Origin: Actinomycetota bacterium
GTDB lineage: Bacteria; Actinomycetota; UBA4738; HRBIN12
Assembly: GCA_016201135.1 (NCBI GenBank)
Contig: JACQDK010000069.1
Location: forward strand, 1 to 32,880
Length of the DNA stretch: 32,880 nucleotides
Reading direction: 5' to 3'
Shown piece after piece: positions 4,218-6,765 of this stretch. Below the pieces are notes generated by a model. The model worked only from the letters and a program-made list of their open reading frames with translations. It searched no databases and was not told the origin of the DNA. The translations under genes and the position numbers were made by a program. Each line of letters starts with the position of its first letter. The stretch's first letter is position 1.

Positions 4218-5108
4218 ATGGCCGGCAGGTTCGGATCCGTCGTCACCGCGATGGTGACCCCCTTCAGGGAGGACCACGCCGTCGACCACGACCGCGCGCA
4301 GGAGCTCGCGTCCTACCTCATCGAGCACGGTTCCGACGCGATCGTCGTCGCGGGATCGACCGGCGAGTCGCCGACGCTGACGCACAAGGAGAAGGCCGAC
4401 CTGTTCCGCGCGGTGGGCGAGGCGATCCGCGGCCGCGGCCAGCTGCTCTGCGGCACCGGCACCTACTCCACCGCCGAGACCCTCGAGCTCACGCAGGCGG
4501 CCGAGGACGCCGGCGCCGACGGCCTGCTGGTCGTCACGCCCTACTACAACAAGCCTCCGCAGCGCGGCCTGATCGCGCACTTCGAGCGGATCGCCGACGC
4601 CACCGACCTGCCGATCATCGCGTACAACATCCCCGGGCGGACCGCCACGCGGATCGAGCACGACACCCTGCTGAAGCTCGCGCAGAAGCCGAACATAGTG
4701 GCGGTCAAGGACTCAACCGGAGACTTCCAGGGGATATCGAGGCTGATCGCCGAGGCTCCTCCAGGGTTCGAGGTCTACTCCGGCGACGACTGGGCCACGT
4801 TCGGGTACGTGTGCCTCGGCGCGGTGGGCGTCGTGTCGGTCGCCGCGCACCTCGTGGGCCCCCAGATTCGTCAGATGATCGAGCTGATCGAGACAGGCGA
4901 CGTCGCGGCGGCCAGGAAGATCCACGAGTCGCTCTCCCCTTTGTTCAACGCGCTCTTCGTCACGAGCAACCCGATCCCACTGAAGGCCGCCCTGGAGATG
5001 GTGGGTCGTTCGGCCGGCGAGCCTCGCCTGCCGCTCGTCCCCGTCACCTCCGAGGAGCGGGAGCGGGTCCGCAAGGCACTGGAGGACGCCGGTCTCCTCG
5101 ACAGCTGA
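4218..5108 (+). CDS. dapA: 4-hydroxy-tetrahydrodipicolinate synthase
   Basis: Condenses pyruvate with aspartate semialdehyde, the first committed step of the diaminopimelate/lysine pathway. The 296-residue TIM-barrel protein has the Schiff-base Lys164 in VAVKDSTGD, the catalytic-triad tyrosines in TPYYNKPP (Tyr109/110) and AYNIPGRT (Tyr136), and the GSTGES phosphate-loop-like motif near residue 47. The start is firm: ATG with GAGGAGG five bases upstream. The leader holds a strong hairpin. RNase J follows with no usable gap, an adjacency also seen in mycobacteria. Together with dapB, dapL and dapF in this window it gives most of the pathway. Confidence 0.97.
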   Translation: MAGRFGSVVTAMVTPFREDHAVDHDRAQELASYLIEHGSDAIVVAGSTGESPTLTHKEKADLFRAVGEAIRGRGQLLCGTGTYSTAETLELTQAAEDAGADGLLVVTPYYNKPPQRGLIAHFERIADATDLPIIAYNIPGRTATRIEHDTLLKLAQKPNIVAVKDSTGDFQGISRLIAEAPPGFEVYSGDDWATFGYVCLGAVGVVSVAAHLVGPQIRQMIELIETGDVAAARKIHESLSPLFNALFVTSNPIPLKAALEMVGRSAGEPRLPLVPVTSEERERVRKALEDAGLLDS

Positions 5109-5157
5109 CACCTGCCGCGTCGTCTTCCTCGGAGGGGTCGGCGAGGTCGGTCGCAAC

Positions 5158-6765
5158 ATGGCCTGCGTCGAGCTCGAAGGCCGCATCCTGCTGGTCGACG
5201 TGGGCCTGTCGTTCCCGCACGCAGACATGCCGGGGATAGACCTGGTGCTGCCGGACTTCGAGTACGTGCGCCAGAACGCCGACCGGGTCGAAGCCGCGGT
5301 GCTCACCCACGGTCACGAGGACCACATCGGGGCGCTCCCGTACCTGCTCCGCGAGCTGGAGGGGCTCCCCGTCTACGGCACCGCGTTCACCCTGGCCCTC
5401 CTTCAGGGGAAGCTGGAGGAGCACGAGGTCTCCGATCGCTGCGAGCTTCGCCTGGCGACGCCGGGCGAGGGCGCCTCGGTCGGGCCGTTCTCGATGCGGT
5501 TCCTGCGCGTCACGCACTCGATCCCCGACGGCATGGCGGTCGCGATCGACTCTCCCTTCGGGACGATCCTGCACACGGGCGACTTCAAGATCGACCAGAC
5601 GCCGCTCGACGGAAGGCCCACCGACCTGCACGGCCTCGCCGAGGAGGCCAGCGCCCCGAAGGGCGTGCACCTGCTCCTCAGCGACTCGACGAACGCCGAG
5701 GAGGCCGGGTACACGTCGAGCGAGAGGAGCGTGGGCCCGGTGCTGCACCGCATCATCGAGAACGCGCCGCAGATCGTCGTGGTGGCCTGCTTCTCGAGCC
5801 ACATCCACCGGATCCAGCAGGTCGTGGCCGCGGCGCGGGCCAACGAGCGCGTCGTCGCGTTCCTAGGGCGTTCGATGCACAACTCCGTCGGCGCCGCCCG
5901 GCGTCTGGGGCTGCTCAACGTGCCCGACGCGGACGTCGTGCCCATCGAGGAGGTCGAGCGCCTGGACCCGGGCCGCGTGGTCGTGATCTGCACGGGCTCC
6001 CAGGGCGAGCCGTACAGCGCGCTCAGCCTGATGGCGGCGCGCGAGCACAAGTGGGTGAAGCTGAAGGAAGGTGACGCGGTGGTGCTGTCCTCCTCGCTGA
6101 TCCCGGGCAACGAGCCGGCGATCCACCGAGTGGTTGACGCGCTCTACCGGAGCGGCGCGGACGTCTACCACATGCCGTCCGACGCGGTGCACGCCTCCGG
6201 CCACGCCGCCCAAGAGGAGCTCCGCCTGATGCTCTCGCTCGTCAGGCCACGCTGGTTCGTCCCGATCCACGGGGAGCGCCGGCACCTCCAGCACCACGCG
6301 CGCCTCGCCGTGGAGGTGGGGATCCCATCGGACCACGTGATGATCTGCGAGGACGGCGACGTGGTCGAGGTGGGGGAGCGGTGCCGGGTCGCGGGTCGCG
6401 TGCCCGCCGGCATGACGTTCGTGGACGGGCTCGGCATAGGCGACGTGGGTGGCGAGGTGCTGAGGGACCGGCGGAAGCTCGCCGGCGACGGGGTGGTTGT
6501 CGTCGTCGTCACGGTCGACTCGCACAGCGGCGAGGTCGTTGCCGGGCCCGACGTCGTGAACCGCGGCTTCGTGTACGACGAGACTTCCGGGGACATCCTT
6601 GAAGAGGCCCGCAAACGCGTCATGCTTTCCCTCGAGGACAGCGCGAAGGCGCGGGTCACCGACCCCAGCGCCCTGCAGCAGAACGTCCGGCGGGTCCTCG
6701 GCAAGTACTTCTACGAGGTGACGCAGCGCAAGCCGGTGATCCTTCCGGTGATCATGGAGGTCTAG
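5158..6765 (+). CDS. rnj: Ribonuclease J (start uncertain)
   Basis: Metallo-beta-lactamase/beta-CASP exo- and endoribonuclease of RNA maturation and decay. From the ATG at 5158 it has 535 residues. The zinc motif THGHEDHIGAL (His51, His53, Asp55, His56), later histidines (HTGDFKID; SDSTNAEE) and the beta-CASP segment with SGHAAQEELRL and PIHGERRHL are intact, and a C-terminal domain follows. The frame continues upstream of 5158 with a typical first strand (CRVVFLGGVGEVGRN, from 5113). However, no ATG, GTG or TTG exists in that frame back to the stop at 4981. The real start is therefore either non-canonical, lost to a sequence error, or the ATG given here with a shortened N-terminus. Confidence 0.93.
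   Translation: MACVELEGRILLVDVGLSFPHADMPGIDLVLPDFEYVRQNADRVEAAVLTHGHEDHIGALPYLLRELEGLPVYGTAFTLALLQGKLEEHEVSDRCELRLATPGEGASVGPFSMRFLRVTHSIPDGMAVAIDSPFGTILHTGDFKIDQTPLDGRPTDLHGLAEEASAPKGVHLLLSDSTNAEEAGYTSSERSVGPVLHRIIENAPQIVVVACFSSHIHRIQQVVAAARANERVVAFLGRSMHNSVGAARRLGLLNVPDADVVPIEEVERLDPGRVVVICTGSQGEPYSALSLMAAREHKWVKLKEGDAVVLSSSLIPGNEPAIHRVVDALYRSGADVYHMPSDAVHASGHAAQEELRLMLSLVRPRWFVPIHGERRHLQHHARLAVEVGIPSDHVMICEDGDVVEVGERCRVAGRVPAGMTFVDGLGIGDVGGEVLRDRRKLAGDGVVVVVVTVDSHSGEVVAGPDVVNRGFVYDETSGDILEEARKRVMLSLEDSAKARVTDPSALQQNVRRVLGKYFYEVTQRKPVILPVIMEV

Follow-up and report, generated by a model that had tools for sequence, protein, structure and literature searches.

The locus discussed here raises the question of where translation of a gene begins when none of the common start codons precedes its conserved N-terminus. 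In a 32,880-nucleotide stretch of DNA from an Actinomycetota bacterium (“the window”), the RNase J gene rnj follows dapA and is read in the +1 frame relative to it. This frame opens after a stop codon at positions 4981–4983, and from there to the ATG at 5158 neither ATG nor GTG nor TTG is present. We propose, with a probability of roughly 0.57, that translation of RNase J begins at a non-canonical codon within the 3′ end of dapA, with GTC as the most likely one. The features of the junction are compiled in Table 1.

Table 1. Features of the dapA–rnj region; positions refer to the window.
Feature	Position	Strand	Basis
dapA (4-hydroxy-tetrahydrodipicolinate synthase)	4218..5108	+	stop TGA 5106-5108; TIGR00674 335.9 bits (cut-off 206.15); PF00701
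rnj (RNase J) as proposed, with its stop codon	5092..6765	+	557 aa
GGAGG, Shine-Dalgarno-like, within dapA	5081..5085	+	7/7 ACG genomes, 3/12 ATG genomes; -9.3 kcal/mol with anti-Shine-Dalgarno for the codon at 5092
Codon-invariant block GAG GAC GCC GGT CTC (dapA frame), read as putative initiation region	5082..5096	+	sole invariant five-codon window
ACG, rival start codon, homologue of the ATG in 12 relatives	5086..5088	+	junction comparison
GTC, most likely rnj start, six bases past GGAGG	5092..5094	+	7/7 ACG genomes, 1/12 ATG genomes
CRVVFLGGVGEVGRN codons: first strand and GGxGExGRN loop of RNase J	5113..5157	+	profiles, structures, conservation, predicted model
First canonical in-frame ATG, coding for an internal Met in the conserved GRNM stretch and improbable as a start	5158..5160	+	junctions, conservation

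The conserved N-terminus of RNase J

Read from position 5086, the gene product scores 560.1 bits against the RNase J profile TIGR00649 (cut-off 400) and, thus, belongs to this family, while its 617.1 bits against NF047419 (RNase J1/RnjA) fall below the cut-off of 820, hence, it is filed as RNase J and not as RnjA. The reading from 5113 matches the PDB chain 5a0t_A (“Ribonuclease J”) with an E-value of 4.2e-159, and homology to the solved RNase J structures 5a0t and 3zq4 spans residues 2–550 and 3–550 of this reading, respectively.

A first-pass annotation of the sequence had recognized a normal RNase J N-terminus in the codons from 5113 and had seen it join the ATG at 5158, which is borne out here. 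The encoded stretch, CRVVFLGGVGEVGRN, runs into that ATG, and 10 of its 15 residues are invariant in an alignment of 20 proteins. Between the window's genome (G000) and the related genomes G001, G014 and G006, the 15 codons preceding 5158 differ by 5, 3 and 4 synonymous changes and by 1, 0 and 0 replacements, respectively; since they change mainly synonymously, they display the pattern of translated codons. With the longer reading, matches to TIGR00649 and NF047419 both begin at profile position 3, whereas the shorter one is matched only from positions 16 and 17. In a predicted model of the 557-residue form, built on an alignment of 20 sequences (mean pLDDT 83.6; 64 and 71 in the first two ten-residue blocks), residues 8–12 (CRVVF) constitute the first strand, which a start at 5158 would delete, in agreement with the earlier annotation. 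As a control, rnj was inspected in four further families of the phylum (f5, f16, f19, f21); among 19 loci, one of which lacked the N-terminus, a canonical start at most 16 codons before the strand was present in 18 of 18 genes.

The lack of ATG, GTG and TTG between 4981 and 5158, asserted in the first-pass annotation, was confirmed, and G001, G014 and G006, which belong to the same family and, together with the window's genome, form a set of four, are alike in this respect. In none of these four genomes is there a canonical start that is compatible with the conserved N-terminus; in G014, the rnj frame is open to the contig edge and dapA is cut by the contig end.

The dapA–rnj junction in related genomes

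The comparison of the junction in relatives, as had been suggested for this locus, covered all 27 available genomes of the order (those available for the class are the same 27); the rnj N-terminus was found in 25 of them and an adjoining dapA in 23. An ATG overlapping the dapA 3′ end is present in 12 of these junctions, where it is made by the dapA codons GAT GCC or GAT GCA. In seven genomes—G000, G001, G014, G006, G003, G016 and G013—the Asp codon is GAC, and the homologous rnj codon is, consequently, ACG. The remaining four junctions (G019, G020, G026, G024) are arranged differently. All seven ACG genomes possess GGAGG directly before the ACG and an in-frame GTC two codons after it, the layout in the window being GGAGG ACG CCG GTC TCC. 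Among the 12 ATG genomes, the GTC is contained solely in G007, beside its ATG, and GGAGG in G007, G008 and G017. The start-less frame is shared by G001, G014 and G006, so that it extends over two genera of the family.

The distance between the dapA stop and the strand is 4 bases in the window versus 7, 10 and 10 bases in G001, G014 and G006, with identical phase. Throughout the 15 dapA-linked junctions of the family, spacings of 4, 7, 10, 13, 19, 28 or 61 bases occur, all in one phase (15/15). Given that the spacing is variable and the phase nonetheless constant, the rnj frame appears to be entered within dapA. The interval 5104–5160, to which attention had been drawn before, indeed holds a frame devoid of a canonical start; the decisive element, however, lies just upstream, at 5081–5096. 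Likewise, the idea of a non-canonical start coupled to the dapA stop was retained in so far as the start is linked to the end of dapA, but the candidate sites are situated within dapA, with ACG and GTC beginning 20 and 14 bases ahead of the first base of its stop codon, respectively.

Further codons are available in some ACG genomes. In G003 and G016, a TTG lies 12 bases past GGAGG, four codons ahead of the conserved stretch, and in G013, the sole canonical codon is a GTG, located at the fourth codon of that stretch; these TTG and GTG codons may serve as starts there. G016 also has a GTG further up. G024, a member of another family, likewise lacks a canonical start; its junction differs in kind and phase. 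At this locus (L023, just upstream of position 476), an in-frame TGA is found 11 codons before the strand, no ATG, GTG or TTG follows, and a CTG occupies codon 3 of the conserved stretch.

Several loci outside this comparison are worth recording. Where rnj has no dapA directly before it (L012 in G009, L024 in G018), an ordinary ATG is present 16 and 4 codons ahead of the strand, respectively. The rnj of G021 (L022) carries one in-frame TAG, with the open frame stopping 216 residues from the strand, reflecting either an error or a broken gene. In G010, rnj matches fall into three pieces on two contigs (L043, L045, L049), which suggests a broken assembly or gene.

In the phylogenetic tree, the seven ACG genomes are contained in a clade of nine (support 100/99) together with the ATG genomes G007 and G008, and the ATG/ACG site has changed at least three times in this clade. 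A single clade of the seven is disfavoured by the AU test (p 0.039), the grouping having been chosen after seeing the data. Three independent contrasts exist: GTC goes with ACG in two of them, the third being neutral (sign test, p 0.5), and GGAGG does so in about one, with two neutral. The case for GTC is one of codon conservation, Shine-Dalgarno (SD) placement and precedent, and not one of many origins.

Candidate start codons inside dapA

The five dapA codons of the invariant block are unchanged in all seven ACG genomes. Considering six genomes (without G014), windows of five conserved residues are fully invariant in 1 of 79 cases in dapA and in none of 129 in rnj; multiplying the per-residue rates for the block gives 0.0007, a value uncorrected for the number of windows. 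By a looser seven-codon score over seven genomes, another dapA stretch ranks above the block (0.97 vs 0.92), and in the four genomes of g1, g2 and g7, the stretch of the block ranks first. It is the dapA codon GGT that makes GTC in the rnj frame. GGT accounts for 12% of the glycine codons in dapA plus rnj, and among 67 glycine columns of the two genes (six genomes for dapA), the GTC-making one is the sole invariant GGT, while six other columns with GGT in the window are all variable. The GTC, hence, appears conserved beyond codon bias in seven genomes within one clade. ACG, in turn, comes from GAC, the usual Asp codon (81%), and its conservation is, therefore, weak evidence.

The dapA Leu codon CTC at 5094–5096, which overlaps the GTC, is invariant in the seven ACG genomes and in eight ATG genomes of the family, though CTG is about as common. 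An RNA hairpin over the SD sequence was considered as a cause of the conservation and discarded: pairing of GAGGA with TCCTC is predicted, but 5075–5108 folds no better than shuffled sequences (z 0.03). The larger region 5061–5135 folds worse than nearly all shuffles (z 2.18).

At usable spacing, all seven ACG genomes reach −9.3 kcal/mol in anti-SD pairing for the GTC, and GGAGG at six bases constitutes a strong, well-spaced SD; ACG lacks one. The same −9.3 kcal/mol is found in G007, G008 and G017, all of which bear the ATG. The standard 16S end GGATCACCTCCTT is present in 9 of 17 family genomes, including G001 and G006; from the window's genome, it was not recovered.

Our second choice is ACG, derived from the relatives' ATG or ancestral to it and kept functional in spite of the poor codon, perhaps through translation coupled to that of dapA. 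Initiation there, while possible, is clearly less probable than at GTC. The codon is the exact homologue of the ATG in 12 relatives, at a site with repeated changes on the tree. GGAGG abuts it with zero spacing, leaving a best usable SD of 0 to −2.8 kcal/mol; however, the relatives' ATG manages in the same place with pairing that is also weak (−2.2 to −4.9 kcal/mol), so that a weak SD alone does not exclude ACG. What initiation at ACG leaves unexplained is the invariant GTC two codons on. We infer from these sequence patterns that translation starts at GTC and not at ACG.

The other explanations fare worse. A programmed +1 frameshift close to the dapA terminus, yielding a DapA–RNase J fusion, would be in accord with an open +1 frame in constant phase at all family junctions and with the invariance of GAGGACGCCGGTCTC; yet the stop and its preceding codon vary (AGC TGA, CTC TGA, CTC TAG, GCC TGA), and the homologous position is simply ATG in 12 relatives, rendering frameshifting, one of the options entertained in the first-pass annotation, improbable. 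Even less credence is given to a start at 5158, which would yield RNase J without its first strand: although this ATG is the first canonical start in frame, the substitution pattern of the preceding codons, the invariant residues, the strand in the model and the late onset of the profile matches all speak against it. An assembly error that removed the rnj start codon, previously suspected as an indel near 5100–5115, is close to negligible. Fragmentation of the four start-less family genomes into 132, 290, 360 and 60 contigs may invite this explanation, but the start-less junction recurs in G001, G014 and G006 with differing spacers and one phase, and in the window, the frames of dapA and rnj are both intact.

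For initiation at GTC, the following sequence of events is envisaged. Ribosomes would bind GGAGG either fresh or during translation of dapA; pairing of the 16S 3′ end with this motif would place the GTC, six bases on, in the P site, where fMet-tRNA would initiate despite the poor codon match. The predicted product is fMet-Ser-Ser-Thr-Ala-Asp-Thr-Cys-Arg-Val-Val-Phe... of 557 residues. Changes at the neighbouring ATG/ACG site would be tolerated in the clade because GGAGG and GTC are already present. By analogy with known systems, we infer that expression from GTC, if used as a start, would therefore be limited and sensitive to initiation factor IF3.

A survey for genes lacking a canonical start compared 766,840 bases of the window's genome, with the window counted in, to 1,048,814 bases of G006, corresponding to about a third of each genome. 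From 61 gene pairs, 46 reach the 5′ part and 13 could be aligned in the codons upstream of the first canonical start; rnj alone is identical there (1.0, third-position changes only), the next gene attaining 0.67. With no second gene having such a start in the 46 pairs, start-less genes are no genome-wide habit in the sampled part. An initiator tRNA with a matching anticodon was sought with the pattern GGGCTNNNAACCC, which we take to be the initiator anticodon arm: an arm with GAC was detected in none of the 17 genomes (exact arm only; the genomes are incomplete), while the arm with CAT is present in 14 of 17, including the window's. G006 contains an initiator-like arm with CAC for CAT (C43:24719–24731), possibly by chance, as control counts are 2 and 2 there. 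IF3 (PF00707) scores above the cut-off in 16 of 17 family genomes.

Precedents and biological meaning

Hecht et al. (2017) reportedly obtained initiation from all 64 codons. The closest parallel is Streptomyces sigR, for which PMC5472188 describes a GTC start behind AGGAGGTG that is repressed by IF3, with proof from the Edman sequence, stop-codon replacement and IF3 mutants. According to the same paper, the annotated GTG of sigR is followed by GGT CCG GTC, the GTC start is kept in 32 of 34 Streptomyces, and its authors were in 2017 aware of no gene documented earlier with such a start. The window's rnj resembles sigR in the combination of GTC with a strong SD (AGGAGGTG in sigR, GGAGG in the window), in an apparent start codon that is badly placed inside or against the SD, and in CCG immediately before the GTC, which is conserved across species in both. 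It differs in the gene concerned, in the location of the site within the upstream gene, in the ATG of the relatives two codons upstream, and in being known here from sequence alone. By this analogy, we propose that rnj of the window works like sigR; it may, then, also be regulated by IF3.

A second comparison is infC, starting with ATT in E. coli and with ATC in Streptomyces, as stated in PMC5472188. Both infC and rnj would combine a non-canonical start with a central RNA or translation function; the codons differ, however, and IF3 control is established for infC but hypothetical for rnj.

According to PMC13232202, U occupies the second position in many active non-AUG codons, and UCC ranks with the lowest, which accords with GUC standing above UCC; a figure for GUC or ACG is not given in its text. 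For 61,358 ancestral AUG starts, PMC5622118 counts 363 switches to GUG, 113 to UUG, 2 to CUG and 1 to AUU. Passages of PMC11497404, PMC9841429 and PMC9845219 add nothing on GTC starts, and among the papers listed in the literature searches, none shows a GTC start for rnj in its title or the opening of its abstract. The rnj GTC would be a further case of the kind known from sigR, in a different lineage and in a core RNA-decay gene, a view to which the sequence patterns lend a somewhat better than even chance.

If true, this case, visible from codon conservation alone, would suggest that GTC starts are missed by annotation limited to ATG, GTG and TTG. A possible evolutionary route would be that a strong SD plus GTC arose beside an ATG, leaving the ATG free to be lost. 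A more tentative thought, again by analogy, is that limited or impaired IF3 might raise RNase J, linking initiation fidelity to mRNA decay, with dapA translation providing a coupled baseline; this is conceivable, if rather doubtful, and a link between IF3 and RNA turnover would become testable should the GTC start be real.
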